Shown here: positions 27,382 through 43,006 of the stretch, one piece after another | How the letters are laid out: each line of letters opens with the position of its first letter | How positions within the stretch are numbered: position 1 is the first letter of the stretch | Source of the DNA: Bacteroides sp. | GTDB lineage: Bacteria; Bacteroidota; Bacteroidia; Bacteroidales; Bacteroidaceae | Length of the DNA stretch: 45,976 nt | Reading direction: 5' to 3' | Assembly (NCBI GenBank): GCA_015060705.1 | Contig: SUXY01000020.1 | Location: forward strand, 1-45,976 | Made by a program: the position numbers and the translations under genes | Notes under the pieces: generated by a model | What the model saw: the letters and a program-made list of their open reading frames with translations, nothing else | What the model was told of the DNA's origin: nothing | Database searches by the model: none

Positions 27382-27454
27382 CGGAAAGTAGCGCAGTTGG
27401 TAGCGCACTACGTTCGGGACGTAGGGGTCGGGCGTTCGAGTCGCCTCTTTCCGA
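27382..27454 (+). tRNA. tRNA-Pro (CGG)
   Basis: A 73-base cloverleaf. Acceptor CGGAAAG pairs with CTTTCCG, discriminator A; D-arm GCGCAGTTGGTAGCGC; anticodon stem CTACG/CGTAG with loop TTCGGGA and anticodon CGG; T-arm with GTTCGAGTC. CCA is not encoded. Its 3' end is the integration site of the element to the right, which leaves the tRNA intact. Confidence 0.96.
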
Positions 27455-28985
27455 CACAAGGCGACAATCGAATAATTTCGGTTGTCGCTTTTGTTTTTTC
27501 TTCTTCGTAACTTGCTGATAATCTACGGAATATCTTGAATACTTCATTCTCATTTTCTGTTCGATAATCGTCATTTTCCTTATCAAACAAAACACCCGCT
27601 GGAAACATCAATTTCTGTAAACTTTGACGGTTTTCAAAGTTACCGCTATTCCATAAAGTACCTAATTTACAAGACATTGCAACTGCTTCATCAATGTATT
27701 TACTCATGTTCGATAAGTTTTTGTTGGCTTCTTCCAACCCTCTACTAATTTCTGCCATTTCAGCAGTCAAATGCTTCAAAGTAGTCTGGTAAACCTCATC
27801 ACTGATTTCTCCTAACCCATAACGGACTTGTACCCTTTCCAACTTCTGTTTACACTCCGTTTGGCGTTTTAAGAGCATCCTGCGAGTTTCATCCTTCATA
27901 TCATTATTATCCTTGAAAACCTTTCTAAGTACGTCTATGAGCACAGGAATGAGTTCCTGAGGTATCTTATACCCATTCAACAACTCCGTATATTTTTGGT
28001 GCATCTTATCGGTACTATGATTGCTCTTGCATCCCTTTTTGTTACACTTGTAATAATTACGACCTCTTGCTTTCACGGTATATCCCGTAAGATAACCTCC
28101 ACAATCCGAACATATAACATGACGTTTCAAAGGAAATTCATCCGTAACTTCCCTATGCTCATAACCAGCATTTGAAAGACCATTTACTTTATTAAATATA
28201 TCCTCATCAATCAATGGCTCATGTTTACCTTTGATTATCTCATCACCTAAAAGACTATGTTTGATATAGCCACAATAGAAAATGTTCTGCAAAATTTTGT
28301 TTAGATGCTTACGGTCAACATCCAGCCCTAAAGCCTTCAACCTATCCACTATGGCAATATCCCCCAATCCTTCGTTTGCTTTCCATAAAAAAGCATTCCT
28401 TAACTTTTTGCCGTCTTCATTGACGGTAATGATATGTTCACGACCAACCTTCTTACGGTCATAACCTAATGGGACTTGCCCGAACCAATATCCCTTCTTC
28501 AAGCATTCCCTCATACCTGTAACACACTTATCCCTACGCAAATCATTCTCAAACTGATTGAACAAGAATAGAATGTTTTCCATAAATGTACCAGCTGCAC
28601 TATCTGGGTCAGTGGCTTGGGTTGCTGATATAACATAAATACCCTTGGTCTTCAAATATGCCTTTGTCATGATGGCTTCTGAACCAGCACGACTGAAACG
28701 GTCAAATGAGTACACCAAAATGATGTTGATTTCTTTATCTCTTGCAACCTCGGCAATCATTTCACGATACATCTTACCTTCCGTCTTTGCACTCTCATGA
28801 GTGCCACCAAATTCTTTTTTGATAGTGATACCATGACGTTCAGCGTATTCTCTACAAATACGCTGTTGGTTCTCTAAACTGCAATTATTTCTTTCTTGCT
28901 TTTCAGTGCTTACTCTTGTCCAAAGAGCAGCGACCTTATTTTCTAACTTTGAAAATTCTGTTACTTTTACCTTCTTTTTCTTCAT
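27408..28985 (-). CDS. Large serine recombinase (integrase)
   Basis: A 525-residue site-specific integrase. The catalytic domain begins VAALWTRVSTEKQERNNCSL with nucleophile Ser26, and contains YSFDRFSRAGSE. The Recombinase domain follows (about 175-270). The zinc ribbon has CSDCGGYL and CNKKGCKS, and a long coiled coil runs over about 365-440. The reading frame does not stop inside the element: its last 15 or so residues (KRRLERPTPTSRT) are the complement of tRNA-Pro and the stop lies at 27408 in the tRNA. The natural end before integration would therefore differ. It lies at the element end, as expected of an integrase. Confidence 0.93.
   Translation of the reverse strand: MKKKKVKVTEFSKLENKVAALWTRVSTEKQERNNCSLENQQRICREYAERHGITIKKEFGGTHESAKTEGKMYREMIAEVARDKEINIILVYSFDRFSRAGSEAIMTKAYLKTKGIYVISATQATDPDSAAGTFMENILFLFNQFENDLRRDKCVTGMRECLKKGYWFGQVPLGYDRKKVGREHIITVNEDGKKLRNAFLWKANEGLGDIAIVDRLKALGLDVDRKHLNKILQNIFYCGYIKHSLLGDEIIKGKHEPLIDEDIFNKVNGLSNAGYEHREVTDEFPLKRHVICSDCGGYLTGYTVKARGRNYYKCNKKGCKSNHSTDKMHQKYTELLNGYKIPQELIPVLIDVLRKVFKDNNDMKDETRRMLLKRQTECKQKLERVQVRYGLGEISDEVYQTTLKHLTAEMAEISRGLEEANKNLSNMSKYIDEAVAMSCKLGTLWNSGNFENRQSLQKLMFPAGVLFDKENDDYRTENENEVFKIFRRLSASYEEEKTKATTEIIRLSPCVGKRRLERPTPTSRT
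27452..27456. repeat. Putative left attachment site (attL) core
   Basis: The bases CGACA at the 3' end of tRNA-Pro recur at 32995-32999. This short identity fits the small crossover core of large serine recombinases but could be chance. Confidence 0.45.
27463..27497 (+). terminator. Element-supplied terminator after tRNA-Pro
   Basis: GCGACAATCGAA pairs with TTCGGTTGTCGC (one T-G pair) around TAAT and is followed by TTTTGTTTTTTC. It now terminates the tRNA transcript in place of the presumed original terminator, which lies at 33000. Confidence 0.8.
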
Positions 28986-29000
28986 GAGATTAAAATTTTA

Positions 29001-29135
29001 TTATTCCTTATTATTATAAATGATTGTACCTATTGAATACATGAACTCCAACACTTGTTTTTGTTCTTCTTGGCTTGTTATGCCTAATTGATTGAATACT
29101 TCTTCATACGACTTTAATTCCTCTTCACTAAACAT
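29001..29135 (-). CDS. Small acidic protein upstream of the integrase
   Basis: A 44-residue frame, MFSEEELKSYEEVFNQLGIT followed by about 24 more residues, ends 15 bp before the integrase start and is on the same strand. The composition is helical, charged and Bacteroidetes-like. Position directly before a large serine recombinase suggests co-expression and a helper role, such as a directionality factor. That is speculative. Confidence 0.5.
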   Translation of the reverse strand: MFSEEELKSYEEVFNQLGITSQEEQKQVLEFMYSIGTIIYNNKE

Positions 29136-29304
29136 TCAACATAAAATTTCCGTGTGCCACGCTTGGCACTTATTTTTGGTATTTGATAGCCAGCTCAGCA
29201 ATGGTAAACCGATTGTCGGCAAATACCCGACCATTGCCTTTCGTGTTTGCAATAAACCTACTTCTTCAAAGAGTGGCTAAAACTGAACTATATTTCAGTT
29301 TTTA
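29136..29304. other. Non-coding stretch with hairpins
   Basis: No convincing gene. It holds TGCCA-CGCT-TGGCA near 29155, an imperfect stem GCAATGGT/ACCATTGC around 29200-29237, and the stem AAAACTGAA/TTCAGTTTT (29279-29302) followed by T's, which is terminator-like. A minus-strand run reading FIANTKGNGRVFADNRFTIA (about 29170-29265) looks protein-like but has no clear start. Confidence 0.5.
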
Positions 29305-29475
29305 CTATATCATATTATATATAATATCATCGATTTTATATTTCGTTTTTTTGATAAATCCCGTATCAATTTGTGATATAACCCGATTGCTCGCAAATAT
29401 CATTTTTTCTCCGTCTGTCGCTGGGCTTCCCGTCACCTCTATTTTGCGACCTCCGTTGTTCAGTAAGTCAGACAC
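29305..29475 (-). CDS. Possible small protein, GTG start
   Basis: A 56-residue frame (MSDLLNNGGRKIEVTGSPAT, then GEKMIFASNRVISQIDTGFI) lies 47 bp downstream of the small resolvase, on the same strand. It begins at GTG directly after a stop codon and no ATG is available. The sequence looks protein-like with no membrane segment, but there is no recognisable family. It could also be the tail of a broken gene. Confidence 0.35.
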   Translation of the reverse strand: MSDLLNNGGRKIEVTGSPATDGEKMIFASNRVISQIDTGFIKKTKYKIDDIIYNMI

Positions 29476-29522
29476 CTAATGTGATATGTTCAAATATACC
29501 AAAAAGAATTTACAAAACAAAA

Positions 29523-30143
29523 TCAGATAAGAGCCTTGCATTTCCGAATCGTGTTGATAGATGTACCCGTAATCTTAGAAATGTTCCGTAATGAATACCC
29601 CTTTTTGAGCAACTTGATTTCTTCGGTGTACTGCTCTTTCATGTCCGATTCAGACTTCTGATAACCAGCTTTACGACCAACCTTGCCACCATTAGCCCGA
29701 AAATTCTTGTAACCGCTTTCCACTCTTTCCCGAATAGTCTTCCGTTCCATTCGTGCAACCTCTGCCAAAATGGTTATCAAGAATTGGCTCATTGCATTAA
29801 CCATACCTTCCTTAGTCAATGTCTCGATATTGTAGTTTTGGATAAACAATGAAATGCCCTTACCATTCAGCATCTCGATAACTTCAAGAACTTGCAAGGT
29901 ATCACGACCCAAACGGCTCAACTCCGTCACTAATACCTTATCTATATGGTTAGCCTCAACATAGTTTATCATATTCAGAAGTTCGGTACGTTCTGTATTT
30001 GCCTTTGCTCCCGAAATCTTTTCGGCAAACACAGCCTCGACACTCCAACCATTACCCTTGGCTAATGCTGTCAGTTCATTTACTTGTCTATCGTATTCCT
30101 GAACACTTGTTGAAACTCTTGCGAAAATTACCGTCTTTATCAT
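29523..30143 (-). CDS. Small serine recombinase (resolvase/invertase)
   Basis: A 206-residue resolvase/invertase. The start is ATG 30143 (MIKTVIFARVSTSVQEYDRQ), giving nucleophile Ser11 in ARVSTS. The catalytic core continues with KISGAKANTERTEL and VTELSRLGRDTLQVLE, and the long dimerisation helix carries EVARMERKTIRERVESGYKN. The C-terminal helix-turn-helix is GYSLRNISKITGTSINTIRK. Such enzymes resolve multimers or invert DNA segments. It belongs to the element and could keep it stable. Whether it also acts on an invertible promoter elsewhere is open. Confidence 0.93.
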   Translation of the reverse strand: MIKTVIFARVSTSVQEYDRQVNELTALAKGNGWSVEAVFAEKISGAKANTERTELLNMINYVEANHIDKVLVTELSRLGRDTLQVLEVIEMLNGKGISLFIQNYNIETLTKEGMVNAMSQFLITILAEVARMERKTIRERVESGYKNFRANGGKVGRKAGYQKSESDMKEQYTEEIKLLKKGYSLRNISKITGTSINTIRKCKALI

Positions 30144-30240
30144 AATTGATTTATATATCATTTAATCCACCACAAATATACATAAACAGGAATTATCCTG
30201 CAAATCTGGATTGATTAAAATATAAATGATTGATAAAATA

Positions 30241-30271
30241 TTTGATAATTAAAACAAAATCATTAGTTTTG
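30241..30271 (+). promoter_or_regulatory. Promoter of the XRE-membrane protein operon
   Basis: TTTG (30241-30244), 19 bases, TAGTTTTG (30264-30271) matches the Bacteroidetes consensus. The start codon at 30289 follows after only 17 bases, so the leader is very short. Confidence 0.75.
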
Positions 30272-30288
30272 TATCAAAGAATGGATTT

Positions 30289-30573
30289 ATGGAGAAAGTA
30301 TTAGCAGAAAACGTAAAGAGACTATGTAAGGAGCAAAAGAAGCAACTGAAAGACCTTGCTTCTGAAATGGGTGTTGACCCTGCAAGCCTGAACCGTGCAA
30401 TGTACGGAAACGCCCGACTTGATACCATTGAAAAGATGGCTACCGCTTTGGGTGTATCTATCAAAAGCCTGTTCGACCCAATAGACGATGAAACGGTAGA
30501 AGGCTACATCAAGATAAAAGGGAAAATCTATCAGTTTAATAGTAGAGAGGAACTAAATAAATTGTTATTATGA
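30289..30573 (+). CDS. XRE-family transcriptional regulator
   Basis: A 94-residue helix-turn-helix protein. The HTH_3 domain covers about residues 5-62 (KDLASEMGVDPASLNRAMYG, DTIEKMATALGVSIKSLF), followed by a short tail VEGYIKIKGKIYQFNSREEL that recurs in Bacteroidales XRE proteins as I recall it. Its stop codon overlaps the start of the next gene by 4 bp (ATGA), so the two are translationally coupled. It most likely controls its own promoter and the cargo genes, or the switch of the element between states. Confidence 0.9.
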   Translation: MEKVLAENVKRLCKEQKKQLKDLASEMGVDPASLNRAMYGNARLDTIEKMATALGVSIKSLFDPIDDETVEGYIKIKGKIYQFNSREELNKLLL

Positions 30574-31109
30574 GAAAAATAAAATGTCCATTTTGTGGAG
30601 AAGAGCAGCCTCTTGATGAATCTCATCATTATATAAAAAAAATTATATTAATTTTCATTTGTATATTATTGGCTGGAATACTTTATTATGCACTTATCTT
30701 TTCTATTTTATTTTTCGGATTGGCAATAATGATGATTGTTGATATTAGAAAAAAAGAGCAACATTGTATTAAATGTCAAAAATTAATAGAAAATCCAGAA
30801 AAATATATAACAAAAAATGACACCAAAACAATAGGGTATTTACATTGTGATATTGGGCAGACACTCAACCTCTTAGCAATGGGAGAATTATTAAAGGCTG
30901 TATCAGAAAATGACATAAAGGCTTTTTTAGTGGCTTTCAACAAAATAACATTTAATAATTTACCTAATCATAAAAAAGATTCTTTTATAACTTCTAAGTT
31001 AGAAAAACGGCCATCAATTATGAGATTCAAATCATTTAGTTCTTATACATTTGAAACTCACTATTATTCTATAATCATTGATGAAGGAAATAATATAACC
31101 TTCGATTAA
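30570..31109 (+). CDS. Membrane protein with split zinc ribbon, unknown function
   Basis: A 179-residue protein, not recognised. The N-terminus has CPFC (Cys6, Cys9) and a second pair CIKC at Cys66 and Cys69; between them lie two predicted membrane helices (about 24-42 and 44-57). A zinc site may thus be built from two cytoplasmic segments joined by a membrane hairpin. The rest (70-179) is predicted soluble and cytoplasmic. It overlaps the XRE gene by 4 bp and is strongly AT-rich compared with host genes. Possible roles include defence or superinfection exclusion, but none is shown. Confidence 0.75.
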   Translation: MRKIKCPFCGEEQPLDESHHYIKKIILIFICILLAGILYYALIFSILFFGLAIMMIVDIRKKEQHCIKCQKLIENPEKYITKNDTKTIGYLHCDIGQTLNLLAMGELLKAVSENDIKAFLVAFNKITFNNLPNHKKDSFITSKLEKRPSIMRFKSFSSYTFETHYYSIIIDEGNNITFD

Positions 31110-31136
31110 AAAATAAAAAAACATAACAGTAAAAAA

Positions 31137-31439
31137 ATGAGCTATTTAATGAATTGGCTATCAAATGTTATTGGATTACCTTTTTTTATTGTAATTCCTT
31201 TAGCTCTCTTCGCCTTCATTCTTTGTTATATAATATTAGAGGAAATATACAACAAGATTGACAAATGTATGGGAAATTGTAAATTGAGAGAACAATGGAA
31301 GTTTTTCAAAGGAATATCGTTATTTGTCCTTTGCATTTCGTTGCTAGTTGTATTGATAACTAGTAACATTAAATCCTGCATAGATAACGTCAACATTAAT
31401 AATAATGAAGAACCATACATTAGAGGACATGGACATTAA
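31137..31439 (+). CDS. Small two-helix membrane protein
   Basis: A 100-residue protein with membrane helices at about 12-34 (FFIVIPLALFAFILCYIILE) and 58-75 (ISLFVLCISLLVVLI). It has a cysteine-containing loop (KCMGNCK) between them and a hydrophilic tail ending RGHGH. No family recognised. It is the third gene of the operon that starts at 30289 and is followed by a terminator. Such proteins are common cargo in small elements. Confidence 0.7.
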   Translation: MSYLMNWLSNVIGLPFFIVIPLALFAFILCYIILEEIYNKIDKCMGNCKLREQWKFFKGISLFVLCISLLVVLITSNIKSCIDNVNINNNEEPYIRGHGH

Positions 31440-31467
31440 AATCTTTTAGATTAAACTGAAACAAAAT

Positions 31468-31520
31468 AATGTATCATTATAGTCTTTTTATTTGATTATA
31501 ATGATACATTTTAATTTTGA
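31468..31520. terminator. Terminator between convergent element genes
   Basis: A perfect 14-bp stem, AATGTATCATTATA (31468-31481) with TATAATGATACATT (31497-31510), followed by TTAATTTTGA. It is AT-rich and separates the plus-strand cargo operon from the minus-strand rep gene. Confidence 0.8.
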
Positions 31521-31581
31521 TACAAACATCATAGTTTCTAACGACTTATGAAGAAAACATCATATCTCATAGAGGTGGTTG

Positions 31582-32485
31582 TTATAACTCTACGAAACCG
31601 AAAATGACTATCGGATTTGTGCAGCCGTTCCGGCCGCACAAATCCTCCCAAGTGATACGGTTATTACCTTTCTCAAAGCGGATAACACTATTCAAATGGT
31701 GATAGAACATATCTTCCAAAAGAGCCTCATCAATCATATAGTAGTTGAAGAACAGCCCTCGACTATCCAAATAATCCTTAACCTCTTGGTTGTTCAAATG
31801 AACTTCGGTACGATATAATTTCTTAGGATTGCCATAGTAGTTGAGAATGTAATCTTTACCCGAACTATTTTGCACCTCTGCCACCTTATCGTATGTGGTT
31901 ATGGTTACACCACGACTTTTGTCTTTGATAGCATTTTTCTGTTTGATATTGACGGTCATGTATTTGTCGGTTTTGTTGAGGCTACCGCTTGTCGTATATG
32001 TGATTTCAGGTCTATCCTCATCACGGTCTTTTATTCTCTTGCCATTCAAAATGGTTGTTACGGTTTTATCCTTTATCAGTTGACGAACCGATTTCCCGAC
32101 ATTGAAAGGAGTGTCCTTGCAAAGGTCTAAGGTTGTTATGTTGTGAGGTTCTAAACCCAACTTGGTAGCGATAAATCCTAAATGGTATTGGTCATTGGTG
32201 TACAATGTCTGATTGTTGAGGCTTATCCATACTTTCGGATTTCCGTTCTCGTGAAGGTTATCTGCTTCTGTCTTTTGACTGATATTGAACTTCAACTGAC
32301 CGAACTCTACTTCCGTATCATTATCCATATAGGTAATGGTATAAACATTGTCATAATACCTACCCTCAACACGGATTAGCTGAAACTCATCAAGGTCATA
32401 CATCTCACCGAAAATTCAGTGAAGAAAGACGGTCATAGTGATAACGGTTTTCCACCTCGAAGCAAACCGTCAAAGCATCAATCAT
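31582..32485 (-). pseudogene. Rolling-circle replication initiator (Rep_trans/phage-X-like), frameshifted
   Basis: The main frame from ATG 32403 is 273 residues: YDLDEFQLIRVEGRYYDNVY, ITTLDLCKDTPFNVGKSVRQ, TITTYDKVAEVQNSSG, and KKLYRTEVHLNNQEVKDYL. The pattern of ITxLDLxxD, TYDKxxE and YRTEVHL suggests a Rep_trans or phage-X type initiator. Upstream, frame MIDALTVCFEVENRYHYDRL (ATG 32485) supplies the missing N-terminus, ending at TGA 32405-32407. One T in the run of four T's at 32411-32414 (minus strand AATTTTCGG) breaks the frame; three T's would give LNFGEMYDLDEF uninterrupted over about 300 residues. It could be a pseudogene, a programmed frameshift, or re-initiation at ATG 32403 (the stop and ATG are 1 base apart). 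Confidence 0.65.
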
Positions 32486-32495
32486 TACTTTTCTT

Positions 32496-32690
32496 TTACA
32501 TACTCGTTTCATTGCTTGCATCATTTTTACTTTCGTAATTTTCATCGGTTGGCTTATAGGGTATAGTCTTCCAATAAGCTTTCATGCTATCACTGATAGC
32601 TTGTTTATGGCTGTCGGTCATTGAACGACCTTTGAGCCTTTGGCTGATGCGTTGCTTTGTTGCATCATTCATGTTTCTGTATAATCTCAT
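32496..32690 (-). CDS. Small NUMOD3-like protein upstream of rep
   Basis: A 64-residue protein with MRLYRNMNDATKQRISQRLK and GRSMTDSHKQAISDSMKAYW. The pattern K-x-R-I-S-x-x-L-K-G-R followed by H-K-x-A-I-S resembles NUMOD3 DNA-binding repeats. It ends 10 bp before the rep start and is on the same strand, so the two form a unit. A role in recognising the replication origin is a reasonable guess, not shown. Confidence 0.65.
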   Translation of the reverse strand: MRLYRNMNDATKQRISQRLKGRSMTDSHKQAISDSMKAYWKTIPYKPTDENYESKNDASNETSM

Positions 32691-32994
32691 AAATGTTATA
32701 TTATTTATATCTATAAATAGTTAGTTAAGTTAAAAAAGTAGGTATAGTAAAGAATAAAATTTTCAGTTCATATAGCTGGAGAAAAAGAAAAAACCGTTTT
32801 TATCCTACTATACGAACCGAAATAAAAATTACTCATACAAGATACCTACACAAACACCCCTCCAATGGGGTACAAGGCAGGTTCCCCAAATATGGCTTAT
32901 ACCACCCTTGTCAGATTGATATGAAAACACTCTATATAGTCGTGTATTTTCTGTAAATCCGCTATAAACTTGTTCGATAATTTGTAAGGGTATT
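32691..32994. other. AT-rich non-coding end of the element
   Basis: No gene. The region lies upstream of the rep unit and contains CCCC-TCCAAT-GGGG (about 32866-32879), GGTTCCCC, and an imperfect repeat TTGTTCGATA/TATTCGACAA (32970-33000) at the element edge. These suit an origin and attachment-site arms, but none can be proven. Confidence 0.4.
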
Positions 32995-33142: not shown

Positions 33143-34321
33143 TTATCCAAGGATTTCCTTACACAATGTGTGGCAACGGATCATCATTCTAGGAATGTGG
33201 AACGGCCCCTTGAAGATATTACCCTTCGCTGGCTGTGCCACGGTTCCGTCACGATGCAAGTAACCGTACCATTCCGGATATTCCTTGTCCGGGAAGTGTG
33301 CATATGTCCAGTCACTGATCTTCTTGTGCATTTCCAAATACTTTTCATCACCCGTTGCTTGGTAAGCATAAAGAGCAGCAATAATGGTTTCACATTGCGG
33401 CCACCAGAACTTCATGTCCTGAGAATAGTCCTGCTGAGGGAAGCCCTTGCAATCGCGGAAGTTGATGATACCACCATACTGTTCGTCCCAACCCCAGTCC
33501 CAAGACCAGTCGAGAATAGTGGTAGCCATTTCCACCAAATCCTTGTCCCAATTACGGTATTTCGCTTCTTCCAAGATGAACCAAGCGGTTTCGATACAGT
33601 GTCCCGGATTGATCAAACGGCCATTGATATTGTCGATGAATTCACCGTTCGGACCTACCATTTCGAGCAACGCCTTGAATTCCGGATGCATGAAGTTTTC
33701 ACGCAACGCCTTGATGGAACGGTCAATCTGTTCAGTCAAGACAGGGTCGTCGATAGCGGCACGGATACGGGCAGCTGTATTCACCAGAATCATGGTAATG
33801 GAATGGCCTTGCGACTTCATGGTATCGAGATACTTCGGAGCCAAGAAACCCGGAGTATTCAACATGTACATGATGCGATTGAACAAGTCAAGAGCCTTCT
33901 GTGCATAGGTCTTGTCACCTGATGCAATCGAGTATTCCGACATCGCGATGGCAGCAAAGCCTTCCGAGAATACATAACGACGCTTACGGAGCGGTGTACC
34001 GTCTTCCATCACCTCGAAAAACATATGTCCGTCGGTATCAAAGCAATGTGCTTCGATAAAGTCAATACAGCTCTTTGATGCAGCCAACCATTCCGGATTC
34101 TTTTCAATGTTATTGTATGCGTAAGAAGCGATGAAACCGAAACGGCCCTGGAACCATACCGACTTGGTAGTGTCCATCAAAGTACCGTCACGATCCAAAC
34201 AAGTGTATACACCACCATGCTTGCGGTCAAGACCGTTCTTCATCCAGAAAGGCATGATGTTTTCCACAAAATCCTTACGGTAACATTCAGCCCATTCCGA
34301 CAAATATTGTTTTACGTCCAT
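33143..34321 (-). CDS. nanE: N-acylglucosamine 2-epimerase (sialic acid catabolism)
   Basis: A 392-residue (alpha/alpha)6-barrel AGE/RnBP-family epimerase. It turns ManNAc from the sialic acid lyase into GlcNAc. Family motifs are WFQGRFGFIASYAYN, RYVFSEGFAAIAMSEY, NPGHCIETAWF with a catalytic-type His, WDEQYGGI, KFWWPQCETI and GPFHIPRM with the second His. This is the AGE-type enzyme that Bacteroides uses instead of the phosphate-dependent NanE of Escherichia coli, so the product stays unphosphorylated until a kinase (RokA-type) acts. It is the last gene of the operon; a palindromic repeat separates it from the lyase. Confidence 0.93.
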   Translation of the reverse strand: MDVKQYLSEWAECYRKDFVENIMPFWMKNGLDRKHGGVYTCLDRDGTLMDTTKSVWFQGRFGFIASYAYNNIEKNPEWLAASKSCIDFIEAHCFDTDGHMFFEVMEDGTPLRKRRYVFSEGFAAIAMSEYSIASGDKTYAQKALDLFNRIMYMLNTPGFLAPKYLDTMKSQGHSITMILVNTAARIRAAIDDPVLTEQIDRSIKALRENFMHPEFKALLEMVGPNGEFIDNINGRLINPGHCIETAWFILEEAKYRNWDKDLVEMATTILDWSWDWGWDEQYGGIINFRDCKGFPQQDYSQDMKFWWPQCETIIAALYAYQATGDEKYLEMHKKISDWTYAHFPDKEYPEWYGYLHRDGTVAQPAKGNIFKGPFHIPRMMIRCHTLCKEILG

Positions 34322-34442: not shown

Positions 34443-35360
34443 TTAAAATTTATTGCAACGTTCAAAGAAGTTGATAGCTTCCAATTCAGCCTTCATCGCA
34501 GCTTCTTCTTCATCAGTCATGTTCTGGAACGGAGTACGGTTCTTGCCCAAATCCAAACCGATGAGCTTCATGATGCGCTTACCACCCACGATGTTACCAC
34601 GATAATGGCAAATTACGTTAATGACTTCCTGAGAGAAGTTCTGACGTTCACGAGCCAATTCCAAGTCACCAGCCTTCCAAGCGTCGATGATACCTACCAA
34701 TTCCTTACCGTTGTAGTTAGTAGTACCACCGATACCACCTTGAGCACCACCCATTGCCAATGAAGGAAGGATTGTTTCGTCCTGACCATGGAGCATATCG
34801 AACTTACCATTCTTGTACAAACGGCATTGGTTGTATTCATAAATGCTTTCGAAAGTATACTTGATACCAGCGAAGTTAGGCACACGGCCGTCTACTGCTT
34901 CGAGCAACTTTACCATTGGCAAGAATGCACCGTTGAAAGCAGGGATATGATAGTAATAGAACGGAAGTTCAGGAGCACCGCAAGCAATTTCTTCGATGTA
35001 CTTCACCAATTCTTCGATACGGCCAATTTTCGGGAACGGAGGAGCCATGGCACCGATACCCCAAGCACCGATTTTCTGTGCATGTTCAGCCAACTTGCGG
35101 CTTGCCTTTACACAGCAGCTACCTACGTGTACAATTACCTTGAAACCTTCCGGAGCAGCAGCGACCCAAGTTTCAGCCAACTTCATACGTTCTTCATCGG
35201 TCAACATGTAACCTTCACCAGAAGAACCGTTGATAAATACACCTTGCAAACCATTCTTCTGCAACATCGCTGCGTATGCAGGAATTGGTTCATAGTTCAC
35301 TTCACCGTTTTCATAGAACGGAGTAAAAGGAGCATCAATAAGGCCAATAATCTTTTCCAT
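34443..35360 (-). CDS. nanA: N-acetylneuraminate lyase
   Basis: A 305-residue DHDPS/NAL-family class I aldolase. It splits N-acetylneuraminate into ManNAc and pyruvate. The Schiff-base lysine is Lys167 in FAGIKYTFES, the conserved Tyr137 is in FYYYHIPAF, and the GSSGEGYMLT pyruvate-binding loop lies near residue 46. The context (epimerase, anomerase-like, transporter) separates it from dihydrodipicolinate synthase. Bacteroides literature also calls it NanL. Confidence 0.94.
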   Translation of the reverse strand: MEKIIGLIDAPFTPFYENGEVNYEPIPAYAAMLQKNGLQGVFINGSSGEGYMLTDEERMKLAETWVAAAPEGFKVIVHVGSCCVKASRKLAEHAQKIGAWGIGAMAPPFPKIGRIEELVKYIEEIACGAPELPFYYYHIPAFNGAFLPMVKLLEAVDGRVPNFAGIKYTFESIYEYNQCRLYKNGKFDMLHGQDETILPSLAMGGAQGGIGGTTNYNGKELVGIIDAWKAGDLELARERQNFSQEVINVICHYRGNIVGGKRIMKLIGLDLGKNRTPFQNMTDEEEAAMKAELEAINFFERCNKF

Positions 35361-35373
35361 AATATCTATTTAT

Positions 35374-35820
35374 TTAAAGTTTAACTTTACCAATTAATTT
35401 TCTGATTTTACCTTCGCCGATTACCGGTGCATGCGGATCTTCCGGATAGACGATGCAGAACTCACCCGGCTGAAGAGTCACGAAAGTAGTCGGTTGGTCA
35501 TCTGACAACGCGCAATCGCCTTCCTTCTGATATTCCTGAGTAATGTTCTTCAAGTCTTCGATAGCCTTCCAGCCAATGGTTTCCTTACCGGTCAAAAGGA
35601 TGTGCACATCGATGTAATCGCGATGCATTTCCAGCACCTGCTTTTCTGCCGGGATACATTCAGGATTCACATTGTTGATGAACAAGTTATCGCCGTCCAA
35701 TTCGATACGGCCCAACGGCGCATTCAGCAAATCGTTTGCCTTTACATAGTCAAAGAGTTGCTTAAACAGCGGGTGGAGGCTCTCCACCCGTGCACTATTC
35801 TGTAAGTTTGATACAATCAT
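35374..35820 (-). CDS. YhcH/NanQ-like beta-galactosidase-subunit-fold protein, probable sialic acid anomerase
   Basis: A 148-residue protein of the YhcH/YjgK/YiaL (DUF386) family, a cupin-like beta barrel. The metal-site pattern is visible as EMHRDYIDVHILLTGKETIG and VYPEDPHAPVIG. E. coli NanQ of this family speeds mutarotation of N-acetylneuraminate released from glycans, so the same role is likely here. It lies 13 bp after the lyase and 13 bp before the transporter. Confidence 0.9.
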   Translation of the reverse strand: MIVSNLQNSARVESLHPLFKQLFDYVKANDLLNAPLGRIELDGDNLFINNVNPECIPAEKQVLEMHRDYIDVHILLTGKETIGWKAIEDLKNITQEYQKEGDCALSDDQPTTFVTLQPGEFCIVYPEDPHAPVIGEGKIRKLIGKVKL

Positions 35821-35833
35821 TTTCTTTTTCTAT

Positions 35834-37066
35834 TTATTCCATATTATCAGTCTTCGGCTTCAAGCAGAACAACTGCAAAGCCAAGGCAACAGCTACTACG
35901 ATACTCAACATCGCAAAGCCCATACCCAAGTTACCACCGTCTGTCCAAGCGCCCAATACCTGAGTCACAGCAGCACCGGCAAACACACCTACCATGTTCA
36001 TCACACCGTACGCAGTCGCACGATACTTGGCTGAAATGAACTGACAGAGAATCGGCATGTTGTTGGCATCGAAGATACCATAACCTACACCGAACAACAA
36101 ACCTGCGCCAACAACGGCAATGAAGCTTTCACCGAAGCCCAACAAAGCCAATGCCGGAATGGTCATACCCAAACCGATAGCACCGGTGTACACACGACCA
36201 CGGATATTCTTTTGTACCCACTTGTCGGACATGATACCACCCACGATTACACCGACAAACGATGAAAGGGCGATAGTGATGGTCGAGATAGGACCGGCTT
36301 CAGACATCGGGATGTTCAAGCTTTCTGCAAACAAGGTCGGCAACCAGTTCTTGGTAGCCCAACCCGGAAGACTCGGAGCTGCAAAGTAGAACAAGATGAC
36401 CCAGAATGCCCAGTTGGTCAATACGATACCCAAGCCTGCCAACGGATTAGCCTTCTTAGTCGGTTCGGAAGCCAACTTCTTGTCTACTACACGGTTCGGA
36501 TTTTCATGCAAGAAAAGCATCAGTACAACTGCATAAACGATACCCACAATACCGAACCAATGGAAAGCCTGTTGCCAAGAAAGGGCAGCCGCCAAGGTAG
36601 CACCGAAACCACCGATAGCCTGACCTGTATAAAGACCGGTCATGTGGATACCTATAGCGAGTGAACGGGATTTGCCTTCGTGCCAGTCTGCAATCAAGGA
36701 AAGTGCCGAAGGAATATAAAGTGCTTCACTGATACCCATGGTAGAACGGAGAATCAAAAGTTGGTTGAAGTCTGCTGCATAGCCCATCAAGTAGGTCACA
36801 GCTGACCATACGAACAAACTACCTACAATCAACCACTTACGGCTCAACTTGTCAGCAATGATACCAGCTACCGGGCTCATGAATCCGTAAATCCACAAGA
36901 ACACGGCCATCAACATACCGAAAGCTTCGGCCTTTTGTAACTCAACAATGTCCAATTTCATTGCTTCCTGCATGGTAGAAAGCATCTGGCGGTCCATATA
37001 GTTCAATAGAGCCACCACCCACAATAGTCCTACGACTACCCACGGATAGAATTTCTTGTCTTTCAT
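35834..37066 (-). CDS. nanT: MFS transporter, probable sialic acid permease
   Basis: A 410-residue major facilitator protein with about 12 membrane helices. ATG 37066 (MKDKKFYPWVVVGLLWVVAL) is preferred over an in-frame ATG 12 codons earlier, since it places the first helix directly after a short cytoplasmic start. Family signatures include NYMDRQML and GIIADKLSRKWL between helices 2 and 3. The name nanT is from position in the operon with lyase and epimerase; the sequence alone gives only MFS. It starts a second transcription unit with its own promoter. Confidence 0.88.
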   Translation of the reverse strand: MKDKKFYPWVVVGLLWVVALLNYMDRQMLSTMQEAMKLDIVELQKAEAFGMLMAVFLWIYGFMSPVAGIIADKLSRKWLIVGSLFVWSAVTYLMGYAADFNQLLILRSTMGISEALYIPSALSLIADWHEGKSRSLAIGIHMTGLYTGQAIGGFGATLAAALSWQQAFHWFGIVGIVYAVVLMLFLHENPNRVVDKKLASEPTKKANPLAGLGIVLTNWAFWVILFYFAAPSLPGWATKNWLPTLFAESLNIPMSEAGPISTITIALSSFVGVIVGGIMSDKWVQKNIRGRVYTGAIGLGMTIPALALLGFGESFIAVVGAGLLFGVGYGIFDANNMPILCQFISAKYRATAYGVMNMVGVFAGAAVTQVLGAWTDGGNLGMGFAMLSIVVAVALALQLFCLKPKTDNME

Positions 37067-37099
37067 GTGATTCTTTATCAAATTTAAAATTAACTTTCG

Positions 37100-37131
37100 C
37101 AAATATAGTCACTTCCTTCTAGAAACGCAAA
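37100..37131 (-). promoter_or_regulatory. Internal promoter before the transporter gene
   Basis: On the minus strand TTTG (37128-37131), 20 bases, and TATATTTG (37100-37107) match the consensus exactly. It lies downstream of a terminator, so the inner genes can be transcribed without the SusCD promoter. Confidence 0.8.
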
Positions 37132-37142
37132 TACATTGTTGA

Positions 37143-37180
37143 TAAAAAAGGGGAGCATCACTCACTGACACTCCCCTTCC
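37143..37180 (-). terminator. Terminator after the sialic acid susD
   Basis: On the minus strand, AAGGGGAG pairs with CTCCCCTT around a 15-base loop and is followed by TTTTTTATC. It separates susCD from the transporter unit. Confidence 0.8.
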
Positions 37181-37219: not shown

Positions 37220-38782
37220 TTAATAACCTGGAGTTTGTTCCAATAATGGGTTCACGTTCATAGCACTCTTGTCCAACGGCCAAAGTACCTTATAAGATTC
37301 AGTTGCCGGCAAAATGCCTGTTTCACCAGAATAGTTAGCCGAGCCTGAGAATACCAATGACTTACCGTCTGCATCGTGCATACGCAAGATGTCGAACCAA
37401 CGCTTGCCTTCACCTACAAATTCCTTGTCGCGTTCTTGCAAGATAGCCAATTCGTTTTCAGCGTACGTACCTTCCACGTATTCATTTCCAGCGAAGTTTT
37501 CACCATAAGCACGTGCACGTACTTCGTTGATATAAGAAGCACATGGATTACCCAAACCATTTTCACATTCAGCCATCATCAACAATACATCCGAGTAACG
37601 GTATACCATGATGTCAGAAATGTAGATGTGAGTACCTGTAGAGCTCAAAGTACCCTGCATCTTGGTCATCATACAACCGAATTCACCCAAAGTACCGTCT
37701 TCAGCCTTAGTCATGTAGTATTCCAAGAATGAACCGTCACGACGAGTATCTTCCGGCTTGTAAGTCTTGAAGAAATCTTCTGTATATTCGTAACGGAATA
37801 CACCACCTGTACCCTTCAAATTCAAAGTATCATTCTGGATAACCTGACCGTCACGTCCGTGAGCCTGACCCAAGAACAAGGCATCTTGATAAAGGAACAT
37901 ACCGCCCCAGTTGGTTGCTTCATTTTCAACAAACGGATAAGCGAAGATGATTTCGCTATTCTTTTTCTTCTTGGTAGAGAAAATGGAAGCATAGTCTTCC
38001 TGCAGCTCAAACTGACCAATGACCCCCTGCAAAGCAGCCTTGGCAGTCTGCAAGTCAGCAGTACCGGTAGCGTTGAAACCTGTAATAGAAACCTTAGCAG
38101 CCCACATATAAATTTCAGCCTTCAACATCAATGTAGCGTACTTCGACCACATATATGCATCGTGTGTATTGTTGCTACCAAAGTATTGTTCAGACTTGTT
38201 GATGTCTTCCTTGATGAAAGCCATAGTTGCTTCCGGAGTGGAACGTTCTGTATAGAACTTTTCTGCACTAGGTTTGCCATCAAGAAGCTCAACTGTTGTA
38301 ATCAATGGCACACCACCATAGGTTCTAAACAAAGAGAAATAATAGAATGCACGAATACCATAAGCTTGACCTAAGTAGTAGCTACGAGCCTGCTCGCTCA
38401 AGAATGTACAATTGTTTTCTACTTCTGTAATGAAGTGGTTTACTTGCATAATCTGAGAATAGAAACCGGCAAAGTTACTGTAACCCGGATTATCCTCTGA
38501 AATATTCTGAGCACATATGTCCGCCAAGTTCAAAGAAGTACCGATGGAAGAAGTACCAATACGCAAAGTTCCACCACGAGCTTCACCTAAATTATACATA
38601 CGTTGATAGTTGTTCGATCTCATATGAGAATGCAAACCCAACATAAAAGATTCTACCTGAGACGCGTTGTTCCAATAGTTCCCTGCACCATAGTAATCCT
38701 CTGGAGACAAATCCAGCGCATCACAAGATGGAGTTAGTGCCGACACCAAGCACAATGAAGCTATATAAAATATCTTTTTCAT
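37220..38782 (-). CDS. SusD-family lipoprotein, NanU-like
   Basis: A 520-residue SusD/RagB lipoprotein. The signal MKKIFYIASLCLVSALTPSC ends in Cys20 followed by DALDLSPEDYY, a common SusD start. TPR-like helical regions with GQAYGIRAFYYFSLFRTYGG and KYATLMLKAEIYMWAAKVS are typical of the family, as is RDKEFVGEGKRWFDILRM near the end. It is 23 bp downstream of susC. Its place beside the lyase and epimerase makes it the likely homolog of Tannerella NanU, which binds sialic acid at the surface. That specificity is inferred from neighbours only. Confidence 0.93.
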   Translation of the reverse strand: MKKIFYIASLCLVSALTPSCDALDLSPEDYYGAGNYWNNASQVESFMLGLHSHMRSNNYQRMYNLGEARGGTLRIGTSSIGTSLNLADICAQNISEDNPGYSNFAGFYSQIMQVNHFITEVENNCTFLSEQARSYYLGQAYGIRAFYYFSLFRTYGGVPLITTVELLDGKPSAEKFYTERSTPEATMAFIKEDINKSEQYFGSNNTHDAYMWSKYATLMLKAEIYMWAAKVSITGFNATGTADLQTAKAALQGVIGQFELQEDYASIFSTKKKKNSEIIFAYPFVENEATNWGGMFLYQDALFLGQAHGRDGQVIQNDTLNLKGTGGVFRYEYTEDFFKTYKPEDTRRDGSFLEYYMTKAEDGTLGEFGCMMTKMQGTLSSTGTHIYISDIMVYRYSDVLLMMAECENGLGNPCASYINEVRARAYGENFAGNEYVEGTYAENELAILQERDKEFVGEGKRWFDILRMHDADGKSLVFSGSANYSGETGILPATESYKVLWPLDKSAMNVNPLLEQTPGY

Positions 38783-38805: not shown

Positions 38806-41800
38806 TTAGAAACTAACGTTTACACCCATAACGAATGTACGTGGCAATGGGTAACCACCATTATTGTTAGCTTGTTCCGGAGAGAACAAGTGATCAGCCT
38901 CTGTCAAGTAACCCAAGTTCTGGGCTGTCAATGTCAACTGTACTGAACCCAAACCAGCCTTGTTCACCCATTGCTTAGGCAAGTTATAACCCAAAGACAA
39001 TTCACGGAAGGCGATATAGTCACCCTTATACATGAACATGGAGTTTTCACGGCAGTAGTTACGCTTACCCAACTGGTCAGCCCAAACGTATGTCGGATAC
39101 TTACCATTCGGATTTTCCGCACTAAATGTATCCCAAGTTTCAGCGATGGTATTGTATGTACCCTGAGCACATGACATAATCCACATAGTCTTATAGTCGA
39201 TAGCAGTAAAGCCAAGCGCGTAGTCGAAACGAGCCGACAATGTCAAGTCCTTCCAAGATACTTGAGTATTGATACCACCAGTCCACTTCGGACGTTGATT
39301 ACCGATCTTCACTCTATCGTAGTTGTCGATAACACCATCCTTGTTTACGTCTTTCCACTTCACATCACCCACTTGGATAGGAAGCGCATTAGCCTTCTGG
39401 CTGTCAGACAACTTTGCATAACCTTCAGCACCAGCATAAAGCGGACGGTTAGAAGCACCATTATTACCAGATGAGATATCAATCAAGCCGTTAGGAATTT
39501 CACTTTCATTTCTATAAATACCTTCAGCTACGAATGCGTAAACATCACCTGGGCGTTGACCTTCTTGATAACCGCCTACCCACATCAAATCATTTCCTTT
39601 ACCAGAGTAAACCTGGAAAGCATTCTGGCGATTATTAGGCAAACCGTTGTCCGGCAATTGGACAATCTTGCTGATACTATATGCACCGTTCCAATTCAAG
39701 TTCCACTTCCAATCTTTCTGATCCAAAATCTTGAAGCCCAATTCGAATTCAAGACCCTGATTGCGGAACTTACCATTGTTGGAAGTAAAAGCAGTTGCAC
39801 CCGAAGTTGCAGGAATAGTGATACTTGCAAACTTATCGGTAGTCAAACGATTATAATAAGTAAAGTTAGCATTGATACGGTTAGCAAGGAAGCCCAAATC
39901 CACACCGGCTTCAAATGTATACGACTTTTCCCATGTCAAATATGGATTAGGAATACTGCTCAACAAGAATGCGTTAGAACCCGCATAGTTGGTAGTAGTA
40001 GCATATGCTCCCTGTACGGTGTAATTACCTACCCAATCCTTGTGTACGTTACCGTTTGCACCGTAACTAGCACGCAACTTACCGAATGACAATACGTCTG
40101 CATATTTTTCCGCGAATTCTTCTTTGGTGAAAATCCAACCTGCAGAAACACCAGGGAAGAAACCCCAACGTTCGTCCTTAGACAACTTGGAGTAACCGTC
40201 ACGACGGAATACGGCAGAAAGCAAGTACTTGCCTTGGTAGTCGTAGTTCACACGACCGAAGAACGACATGATGCGCTGACGAGAGTGTGAAGAGTCGATA
40301 GAACGCTTGCCTTCGTCGGTGATTGTGTATTCCAAGTCTTGGAAAGCATCAGTCGGAGCACCCGAACCGCTGGCAGAGAAGCCTCTAGCATATGAATCGT
40401 AATATTCAAAACCGACCATTGCATCCAAGAAGTGATCCTTGTTGATCTGCTTGTTGTAATTCAACACAGCATTGTAAGTTTGGTCGATAGTACGGCTGAA
40501 CTGTGCACTTGAGCTGTGAGACTTGTTTGTATTACCCGGTGAAGACAAATAGTCCTTGTTGAATGATTCATAGTAACCTTCGCTGTAGTACCAGATAGCA
40601 TTCAACTTCAACGACAATTCTTTCATGATATCGATAGTGAACGACTGGTTCATGGTGAACTTGTCAGTCTTGTTATCACGAATGAACTTATCGAAGTTCA
40701 ACTGTTGGTTACCGTCACCAGAGTTAGGACCCAACAACATTTCACCGTCCGCATTGTACCCACGGAAAGTTGGAGGCAATGACAATACGCGAGAGAAGTA
40801 ATTGGCTTCAGCAGTCTGTGTAGGAGGAAGGTCATTCCAAGAAGCATTGGCATAGCTGAAGTTGGATGTAGAAGTCAACCAAGGCTTGATCTTATAGTCA
40901 CCGTTAAAAGTGAAAGTGACACGGCGGTATTCATTACCATATGCGTTACCTTCCGAATCATTGTAACCGATACCGGCATAGTAATGACCCTTGTCGTTAC
41001 CACCGCTCAAGCTTACATTATAGTCTTGTGAGAATGACGGAGTGTTTACGTTAAAATCAGCGATGTCGAAGTTCTTGAAAATCAACTTGTCACCGTATAC
41101 TGGGTCAGTCATGGTTTCCCAACCTTCGTTGAGCAAGAATGCCAAATTGTCTGAATACTTCATGGTACTCCAAATAGCCTGGCTAGTTTTGTTACCATCA
41201 AGTACATTACCATTGTTGTCGAAGTAACGGTTACCGGTACCGTAAGGAGTAGAGCCACCCAAAGTACTGATATTAGACCATTGCTTAACCTGTGAGCCAT
41301 CAGGATGCTTCATTTCACCGGTATAAGCATTCATATAACCTGTACGCATCCAATAGATATAATCACGCGCATTCATGAAATCGTATGAATCCTGGAAATA
41401 GTTCAAACCGAGCTTTGCAGAAAAGTCTACACGAGCAGAACCTTCCTTACCACGCTTGGTAGTAACAAGAACCACACCGTTGTTAGCACGGGCACCATAG
41501 ATAGCGGTTGCACCGGCATCCTTCATCACTTCCATAGATTCAATGTCGGCCGGATTGATATCACTCAAAGAAGAGCGCACCTGGCCATCCACCAAAATCA
41601 ACGGAGAACCTGATCCACTGAAGTCAGTACCACCACGAAGAATCAAGGTAGGAGCTGCACCCGGGTTACCGGAAGTCTGACTTACCGAAAGACCAGCTAC
41701 CGCTCCAGAAAGAGCCTGAGCCGGATTGGAATGGAGACCGGTAGTCAACTGATCATTTTTTACCTTAGCAATGGAGTTGGTCATCTTAGAACGGAGAGTC

Positions 41801-42183
41801 TTACCACCATAAGCTGTTACCACCACTTCGTCCAACACTTCAGTGTCTTCCTTCAAAGTAATGTTCATCGCCTTACCGTCCCAAACGATTTCTTGAGTGG
41901 CATAACCCACGAACGAAACCTGGATGATATCACCCTTCTTTACATTAGTAAGAGTAAAATTACCATCGAAGTCGGTAATTGTACCATTAGTCGTACCTTT
42001 CACCACTACAGATGCACCGATAACGGTTTCACCTGATGCGTCTTTTACGACACCAGTACAAGTTTCACTCTGCTGTACTACCGGAGCCTGAATAGGGGCA
42101 GCACCAGTAGTAGCCATAGCAGGTCCTGCTGACATAGTCAACAAGGCTAGCATCATGCTAACTGATTTAAACTGTCTTGTCAT
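38806..42183 (-). CDS. SusC-family TonB-dependent receptor, NanO-like
   Basis: A complete 1125-residue SusC. Signal peptide MTRQFKSVSMMLALLTMSAG..., then a carboxypeptidase-like regulatory domain (GVVKDASGETVIGASVVVKG to about residue 115), the TonB-box-like region VLDEVVVTAYG, the plug (LSGAVAGLSVSQTSGNPGAA, ILVDGQVRSSLSDINPADIE, AIYGARANNGVVLVTTKRG), and the barrel ending FVMGVNVSF. It pairs with the SusD gene downstream. By locus it is the counterpart of NanO, a sialic acid porter. The promoter of this gene lies between 18-bp inverted repeats, so it may be switched on and off. Confidence 0.94.
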   Translation of the reverse strand: MTRQFKSVSMMLALLTMSAGPAMATTGAAPIQAPVVQQSETCTGVVKDASGETVIGASVVVKGTTNGTITDFDGNFTLTNVKKGDIIQVSFVGYATQEIVWDGKAMNITLKEDTEVLDEVVVTAYGGKTLRSKMTNSIAKVKNDQLTTGLHSNPAQALSGAVAGLSVSQTSGNPGAAPTLILRGGTDFSGSGSPLILVDGQVRSSLSDINPADIESMEVMKDAGATAIYGARANNGVVLVTTKRGKEGSARVDFSAKLGLNYFQDSYDFMNARDYIYWMRTGYMNAYTGEMKHPDGSQVKQWSNISTLGGSTPYGTGNRYFDNNGNVLDGNKTSQAIWSTMKYSDNLAFLLNEGWETMTDPVYGDKLIFKNFDIADFNVNTPSFSQDYNVSLSGGNDKGHYYAGIGYNDSEGNAYGNEYRRVTFTFNGDYKIKPWLTSTSNFSYANASWNDLPPTQTAEANYFSRVLSLPPTFRGYNADGEMLLGPNSGDGNQQLNFDKFIRDNKTDKFTMNQSFTIDIMKELSLKLNAIWYYSEGYYESFNKDYLSSPGNTNKSHSSSAQFSRTIDQTYNAVLNYNKQINKDHFLDAMVGFEYYDSYARGFSASGSGAPTDAFQDLEYTITDEGKRSIDSSHSRQRIMSFFGRVNYDYQGKYLLSAVFRRDGYSKLSKDERWGFFPGVSAGWIFTKEEFAEKYADVLSFGKLRASYGANGNVHKDWVGNYTVQGAYATTTNYAGSNAFLLSSIPNPYLTWEKSYTFEAGVDLGFLANRINANFTYYNRLTTDKFASITIPATSGATAFTSNNGKFRNQGLEFELGFKILDQKDWKWNLNWNGAYSISKIVQLPDNGLPNNRQNAFQVYSGKGNDLMWVGGYQEGQRPGDVYAFVAEGIYRNESEIPNGLIDISSGNNGASNRPLYAGAEGYAKLSDSQKANALPIQVGDVKWKDVNKDGVIDNYDRVKIGNQRPKWTGGINTQVSWKDLTLSARFDYALGFTAIDYKTMWIMSCAQGTYNTIAETWDTFSAENPNGKYPTYVWADQLGKRNYCRENSMFMYKGDYIAFRELSLGYNLPKQWVNKAGLGSVQLTLTAQNLGYLTEADHLFSPEQANNNGGYPLPRTFVMGVNVSF

Positions 42184-42219: not shown

Positions 42220-42237
42220 CAAAGTTCTGCTTGTACT
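42220..42237 (-). repeat. Left arm of an 18-bp inverted repeat around the susC promoter
   Basis: CAAAGTTCTGCTTGTACT is the exact reverse complement of 42434-42451. It lies 37 bases upstream of the susC start, inside the untranslated leader. Confidence 0.9.
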
Positions 42238-42273
42238 ACATAAATATCCTTCTATTTATGCTTACACTAATTG

Positions 42274-42305
42274 CAAAGATAAAATATTCGTTAACAATCC
42301 GCAAA
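42274..42305 (-). promoter_or_regulatory. Promoter of the sialic acid susCD unit
   Basis: On the minus strand TTTG (42302-42305), 20 bases, and TATCTTTG (42274-42281) match the Bacteroidetes consensus exactly. The predicted leader is about 85 bases long. Confidence 0.8.
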
Positions 42306-42350
42306 CAAATTCGACATTTTTTCCACTTTTCCTATACGAGCTTCCACTGA

Positions 42351-42405
42351 AAGACGATACGTCTTATTGCAGTAAGCCGTATCGTCTTGTTGCGACAAGA
42401 CGTAT
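42351..42405. repeat. Overlapping alternative stem-loops
   Basis: AAGACGATACG (42351-42361) pairs exactly with CGTATCGTCTT (42378-42388). ATACGTCTT (42357-42365) can instead pair with AAGACGTAT (42397-42405). CTTGT-TGCG-ACAAG (42386-42399) is a third option. Confidence 0.7.
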
Positions 42406-42433
42406 GAAGTTATTGGATATACATATACGGCTA

Positions 42434-42451
42434 AGTACAAGCAGAACTTTG
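42434..42451 (+). repeat. Right arm of the 18-bp inverted repeat
   Basis: AGTACAAGCAGAACTTTG, exact reverse complement of the left arm. It lies just downstream of the thioesterase terminator. Confidence 0.9.
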
Positions 42452-42465
42452 CATATTGCAGCGAC

Positions 42466-42503
42466 CAATAAAAAAAGCGAAGAAGTACTCTTACTTCTTC
42501 GCT
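42466..42503 (-). terminator. Terminator overlapping the thioesterase stop codon
   Basis: AGCGAAGAAGTA (42476-42487) and TACTTCTTCGCT (42492-42503) form a perfect 12-bp stem, followed on the minus strand by TTTTTTATTGG. The stop codon lies in the loop and stem. Confidence 0.88.
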
Positions 42504-42934
42504 AATTCTTCCAAAGTCTTGCCTTCGAAACGGCAAATGGCATTCTTGTAGTGGTCCGGTATCGGCGTTGGTTCTTTGGTGAGCAAATCGTACATCACCA
42601 AGGTCGTACGGCATTCGCACTTCACTTCGCCCGAATTCTTCACCACCGCGCGCTGCAACAGCGTAAAGCTCTTGTTACCCAACTGCACGGTCGCTGTTTC
42701 AATCTCAATACCGTCCGAGAAAAAGACCGGCATCAAGAAATTGGCATTGATATTGGCTACCACTACCACCACATCTCCCCATTCCGACATGCCAAGGACA
42801 TCCTGGAAATAAGTAGTCTTCGCCAAATCGTACAAAGAGAAGTATACTGAGTTATTCACATGCCCGAATTGGTCTACGTCACTGAAACGTATCTGAGCAG
42901 GCATAAAATGATTGAATTTAATTCCTTCCTCCAT
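42491..42934 (-). CDS. Acyl-CoA thioesterase, 4HBT hot-dog fold (YbgC-like)
   Basis: A 147-residue hot-dog-fold thioesterase. The start ATG 42934 (MEEGIKFNHFMPAQIRFSDV) fits the family; the eight codons before it are likely leader. The active-site motif IRFSDVDQFGHVNNSVYFSL carries the catalytic Asp, and the central helix follows. YbgC-type enzymes hydrolyse short acyl-CoAs or acyl-ACP. It is a single-gene unit, divergent from metY. Confidence 0.92.
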   Translation of the reverse strand: MEEGIKFNHFMPAQIRFSDVDQFGHVNNSVYFSLYDLAKTTYFQDVLGMSEWGDVVVVVANINANFLMPVFFSDGIEIETATVQLGNKSFTLLQRAVVKNSGEVKCECRTTLVMYDLLTKEPTPIPDHYKNAICRFEGKTLEELAKK

Positions 42935-43006
42935 ATCGCTAAATCTAATTTGATGCAAAAATAATACTTATTCCTAATAATATGGTTCGATATAAGAGGA
43001 ATTTCT

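Follow-up and report, generated by a model that had tools for sequence, protein, structure and literature searches.

A probable invertible promoter between inverted repeats upstream of a NanO/NanU-like susCD pair, and inversion of the homologous segment in related genomes

The locus raised the question of whether a susCD pair beside genes of the sialic acid pathway is transcribed from a promoter that can be turned around. The initial annotation had read the region upstream of susC as a possible phase-variable promoter flanked by perfect 18-bp inverted repeats with a 196-nt spacer. The window, which is the whole stretch of DNA analysed (45,976 bases), belongs to a genome assembly (G000) of 2,947,854 bases in 118 contigs, 88% complete. 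The repeats were present as exact complements, and the promoter, TTTG-20-TATCTTTG, was located inside them on the minus strand and directed toward susC, as had been claimed. The interval and its immediate neighbours were composed of the following features.

38806–42183, minus strand: SusC/RagA TonB-dependent porter gene, NanO-like, the predicted controlled gene
42220–42237, plus strand: inverted-repeat arm proximal to susC, CAAAGTTCTGCTTGTACT, with an exact match to the motif AGTYYYN4GDACT at 42223–42237 (AGTTCTGCTTGTACT)
42238–42433, no strand: predicted invertible segment of 196 bp, in the ON orientation in the assembly
42239–42260, minus strand: 8-bp hairpin within the putative leader of susC, CATAAATA / TATTTATG, seen by eye
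42274–42305, minus strand: predicted Bacteroides-type promoter facing susC, a consensus match with TTTG (42302–42305), 20 nt and TATCTTTG (42274–42281)
42329–42405, no strand: dispersed REP-like hairpin repeat within the predicted invertible segment
42434–42451, minus strand: distal inverted-repeat arm, 100% complementary, with the motif on the minus strand at 42434–42448
about 42469–42503 (also given as 42476–42503), minus strand: terminator-like hairpin with a T run, belonging to the thioesterase-like gene upstream
42491–42958, minus strand: thioesterase-like gene (4HBT_2), upstream of the interval

The arms were identical at 18/18 positions, and the match ended sharply on either side. They formed the sole perfect inverted repeat of at least 15 bp with a spacer of 50–1500 in the window. 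When the window was shuffled 200 times with dinucleotides preserved, 18 bp was reached in 0 shuffles, 17 bp (the longest) in 2 and 15 bp in 9, and 189 shuffles contained no repeat of at least 15 bp. The arm 18-mer was found at seven places in the own genome when up to three mismatches were allowed; only the arm pair was exact, and the remaining five places carried three mismatches each, one of them forming half of a different site pair on contig C31. The reversed-pattern control gave six places (4 and 2), so single approximate copies of the arm carry no meaning. The exact 18-mer was found in seven stretches of genome contigs, none of them a Bacteroidales record by title (records near the own genome may be left out of this set), and gave 0 matches in viral contigs. 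The arm sequence therefore looks private to the species.

The −7 box of the promoter started 44 nt ahead of the proximal arm, and the end of the promoter was 91 nt from the start of susC (42183). The REP-like repeat had outer inverted ends and inner units of roughly AAGAYGNTACNTCTT, with an RNA fold z of −4.2, and similar stretches were found on at least nine other contigs of the own genome and in G034. The thioesterase-like gene lay on the same strand as susC and was closed by its own terminator-like hairpin.

Near-identical inverted repeats around a promoter, 5′ of a surface-protein gene, are characteristic of Bacteroidales invertible promoters, and this arrangement was found here. The 232-bp interval is very likely a site-specific invertible promoter of the NanO/NanU-like susCD pair, flipped in trans by a tyrosine recombinase. 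In the proposed mechanism, the recombinase would recombine the two arms and thereby invert the intervening 196 bp. In the ON orientation, which is the assembled one, the promoter would transcribe the susC–susD unit. In the OFF orientation, the promoter would be reversed and would run antisense toward the terminator and 3′ end of the thioesterase-like gene upstream, which would leave susCD silent.

The arms could instead be regulator operators or the terminal repeats that bound a small insertion, since a dispersed repeat lies between them and paired operators can look alike. This explanation is extremely unlikely. The matches of the dispersed repeat excluded the arms, and no target-site duplication was found outside them (flanks ttctc and catat); transposon-like terminal repeats had been the first suspicion and were dropped for want of this duplication. 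Neither operators nor an element would explain the inverted homologous segment found in relatives.

Downstream of susC, the following features were arranged on the same strand.

37220–38782, minus strand: SusD lipoprotein gene, NanU-like (NCBIfam NanU, 288.7 bits), predicted to be co-controlled with susC
37100–37176, minus strand: terminator-like hairpin (37144–37176) and a separate promoter with the −7 box TATATTTG (37100–37107), between susD and the MFS gene, seen by eye
35834–37102, minus strand: MFS transporter gene, NanT-like, with the likely true start at ATG 37066
35374–35820, minus strand: YhcH/N-acetylneuraminate anomerase family gene
34443–35360, minus strand: N-acetylneuraminate lyase-like gene
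33143–34321, minus strand: N-acylglucosamine 2-epimerase gene

The transporter, lyase and epimerase genes had been assigned a promoter of their own in the initial annotation, which fits the hairpin and −7 box in the susD–MFS gap. Bounded upstream by the terminator-like hairpin of the thioesterase-like gene and downstream by the hairpin and new promoter that precede the MFS gene, susCD appears to be a self-contained unit, and the only promoter visible for it lies inside the repeats. The MFS, anomerase, lyase and epimerase genes would stay expressed from their own promoter, and only the outer-membrane capture of the sugar would be phase variable. The SusD score was below the cut-off of 425 of the NanU model NF033072, and the closest solved relative of SusD was 3nqp, followed by NanU 4l7t; we therefore only infer sialic acid as the substrate of SusCD, from the neighbouring genes. 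In G038 (L013, 1540–2200), a thioesterase-like gene was followed directly by an apparent MFS gene (by eye) with no susCD between them, so susCD together with the switch looks like a module that was gained or lost.

In order to compare the interval among relatives, susC homologues were picked by their SusD match. The genus search covered 61 genomes, the own included, and we take this genus to be Phocaeicola. Matches passed the thresholds in 24 of the 61 genus genomes and in 10 of 251 family genomes (overlapping sets), and 18 upstream regions in 17 genomes were read. Two regions at contig ends (G053:C138 and G040), the unscanned G027 and genus SusD matches below 362 bits were left out; the gene start for several regions was estimated from the tblastn alignment, and the G007 region was partly N beyond ~425 b upstream.

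Perfect repeats surrounded the promoter in seven regions (G000, G060, G028, G025, G019, G011, and G278) and imperfect ones in another (G037, 15/17 pairs). Nine regions had no repeats in the stretch read (G013, G007, G053b, G266, G214, G175, G189, G008, and G060b), and the upstream region of G031 was cut, with a single motif site. A TAnnTTTG box directed toward susC was located 32–44 nt before the proximal arm in 7/8 repeat-bearing regions; G025 had a second box facing away, and the only box of G060 faced away from susC. At least two nan-type genes were present in the fetched stretch of G019, G011, G266, G278, G214, G175, G013, and G053b. None were found in the fetched stretches of G060 and G028, which contain the closest homologues, or of G025, and the link of these three loci to sialic acid is correspondingly weaker. 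In G278 (L099, 1693–2243), a broken susC start lay beyond the distal arm, divergent from the nanO-like gene, and both genes began alike. A two-way switch serving this divergent susC was rejected, as frame translation gave a remnant with stops.

The comparison with related genomes had been suggested in the initial annotation. Repeats were present in 8/18 regions and the segment was inverted in G060 relative to G028, whereas the 9/18 regions without repeats come near to the single-armed homologues that had been named as contrary evidence.

The G060 and G028 SusC proteins were each 75% identical to that of the window. Their upstream flanks aligned plus/plus with identities of 163/166 and 56/57, each together with the adjoining arm, whereas the 311 bp from arm to arm, arms included, which lie at C1:1067848–1068158 in G060, aligned plus/minus with 306/311. 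The −7 box TATATTTG was directed at susC in G028 but in the opposite direction in G060. As judged by these alignments, the two genomes differ by a naturally occurring inversion whose break points fall at the repeats, and both orientations, as for Bacteroidales invertible promoters, were thus found at the homologous gene of relatives. The arms matched within each species yet differed between G060 and G028, and likewise between G019 and G011; such concerted change is expected if the arms recombine with each other. The phase-variable reading is supported via homology, with both orientations in two sibling genomes and the same type of site in the arms of the window. We infer that the interval also inverts in the own species, with loss of susCD transcription in the OFF orientation.

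The motif AGTYYYN4GDACT, which we take to be the consensus site of Tsr0667, a SusC/SusD invertase of B. fragilis, was present in both window arms and absent from the rest of the window (0.47 occurrences expected). On both strands of the own genome it was found at 49 places (24 + 25) against 74 (41 + 33) for the reversed control, and was not over-represented. Since the reversed control was commoner, the counts alone prove nothing and only the pairing of sites is informative. The consensus AGTTC-N5-GAACT occurred at 18 places in the own genome, compared with 12 for its reversed control, and the window arms were one letter off.

No recombinase gene was found beside the interval. The best candidate for the enzyme of the nan switch is a tyrosine recombinase of 386 aa at G000:C54:43847–45004, which has an open frame and adjoins a SusC gene. 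Relatives of this protein (E ≤ 1e-60) were found in 14 of the 17 tested genomes, the own included, and the full-length relatives outside the own genome were 46–66% identical; the relative in G060 is encoded at C1:2389560–2390714. All eight repeat-bearing genomes, the own included, had a relative. The association is weak, because relatives were also present in five of the eight genomes without repeats (G013, G007, G053, G266, and G008) and in G031. SusC-like sequence lay near the recombinase at 12/18 loci, and on both sides of it in at least three (L128, L129, and L130). The recombinase gene was enclosed by an inverted motif pair at 8/18 loci, identical in L121, L123, L126, L128, L129, L130, and L131 and with one difference in L125; no motif sites were found at 6/18 loci. 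From this arrangement, the tyrosine recombinase common to Phocaeicola and Bacteroides, near SusC and with inverted AGTYYYN4GDACT on either side, probably belongs to a SusC shufflon as its resident invertase. The tyrosine recombinase on C11 was rejected as a conserved invertase, as it was found in only 2/17 genomes, the own included.

Around the own C54 recombinase, only a single motif site was found in 4,158 bases, and no inverted repeats of at least 12 surrounded its start. That single site would suit a relic, in which the recombinase was lost in the own species and the promoter became fixed ON; so would the lack of a recombinase adjoining the interval and a window contig that runs unbroken through it, compared with another site that stands at two contig ends (C11 and C61). 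The arms, however, are still identical at all 18 positions, where drift would be expected if they were unselected, and the 386-aa frame is open and has relatives in all eight repeat-bearing genomes. A relic is therefore unlikely.

The window itself also encodes two recombinases of the serine type, 12–15 kb from the interval.

27408–28985: large serine recombinase
29523–30161: small Mpi/resolvase-like serine recombinase

Both lay in a remnant-like integrated element at tRNA-Pro (27382–32900), which was located directly downstream of the nan genes and also contained AT-rich small genes. A real switch could be driven by either enzyme, and the small one, 12 kb away, has some likeness to Mpi (68.7 bits with NF009949, whose cut-off is 272). 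It is very unlikely that either drives the switch, and they were rejected as its drivers as part of the tRNA-associated element. The Mpi-type site, presumably ARACGTWCGT, was not in the arms, which by eye lacked ACGT, and the arms fit the motif that was found around tyrosine recombinase genes.

A SusC promoter inverted by a tyrosine recombinase would closely resemble the Tsr0667 (BF0667) regulon of B. fragilis YCH46, whose SusC/SusD loci, with their invertible promoters and shufflons, were reportedly described by Nakayama-Imaohji in 2009. The two share SusC/SusD targets, short inverted repeats, arms that fit the consensus and a tyrosine recombinase encoded next to a SusC gene; here, however, the species and the susCD pair are different and the recombinase is a candidate. 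The Mpi capsule promoters of B. fragilis likewise have a promoter between inverted repeats and are switched in trans, as is proposed here, but by a serine recombinase, at a different site and at capsule loci. In the NanLET/NanOU sialic acid system of B. fragilis, the same kinds of genes are laid out, namely SusC, NanU-like SusD, MFS, lyase and epimerase. In three genomes of genus g3 (G266, G214, and G175), susC was immediately preceded by the co-directional epimerase gene and repeats were not found, whereas the susCD of the window has its own promoter between repeats.

The view that a phase-variable porter for a host sugar would be unusual did not hold. SusC/SusD loci that invert are on record for Bacteroides: Tsr0667 is stated to invert three clusters of SusC/SusD genes and nine further regions (PMC4747536), and the invertible regions most variable in orientation between IBD and controls are described as lying near SusC/SusD systems and upxY genes (PMC10939037). 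Invertible SusC/SusD promoters are thus an already known class, and only the sialic-acid target looks new. No published phase-variable sialic-acid SusCD was found in the open-licence literature; such loci may be listed without a name in the supplementary tables that accompany inversion surveys.

Sialic acid comes from the host, and gut commensals and pathogens contend for this sugar. P. vulgatus strains given N-acetylneuraminate with little glucose are reported to grow only after a long lag, after which PvCL10 grew on N-acetylneuraminate alone like ATCC 8482, the only strain with any immediate growth on this sugar alone; inversion is not mentioned in the growth section of that report (PMC13114119). 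Selection of ON cells could account for the lag, but induction could do so equally well. It is conceivable, though rather doubtful, that in Phocaeicola and some Bacteroides sialic acid capture is a recurrent target of the SusC-shuffling invertase, that populations always hold cells without uptake through this porter, and that the P. vulgatus lag is the outgrowth of ON cells. The OFF assembly of G060, if this is ATCC 8482, speaks against a simple selection of ON cells unless the cultures were mixed, as ATCC 8482 grew at once; our confidence in this broader reading, already low, was for this reason lowered slightly. If the sialic acid porter is switched by DNA inversion, the outcome of growth assays and competitions and the length of lag phases in Phocaeicola would depend on a hidden ON fraction. 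Single-cell bet-hedging would then be limited to the exposed surface protein, a possible phage or immune target, and would spare the pathway, because the genes for catabolism seem to retain a promoter of their own.

Inverted site pairs in the own genome were located in the window and at C31:2137/2294, C32:50819/50956, C32:51515/51656, and C72:18612/25220. The pair on C31 (L106, 2137–2308) enclosed another SusC promoter that is likely invertible, TATTTTTG, directed at a SusC gene, and the arms of this pair were alike in 14/15 motif letters. On C32 (L114, 3820–4671), the two inverted pairs, each ~140 bp from site to site, lay by small ORFs and a DegT-family aminotransferase gene. The contig ends at G000:C11:63 (start of L109) and G000:C61:44994 (end of L110) had a palindromic site in common, AGTTCTCTGGGAACT, in one case by a tyrosine recombinase, and this shared site may perhaps mark an unresolved inversion at which the assembly broke off.
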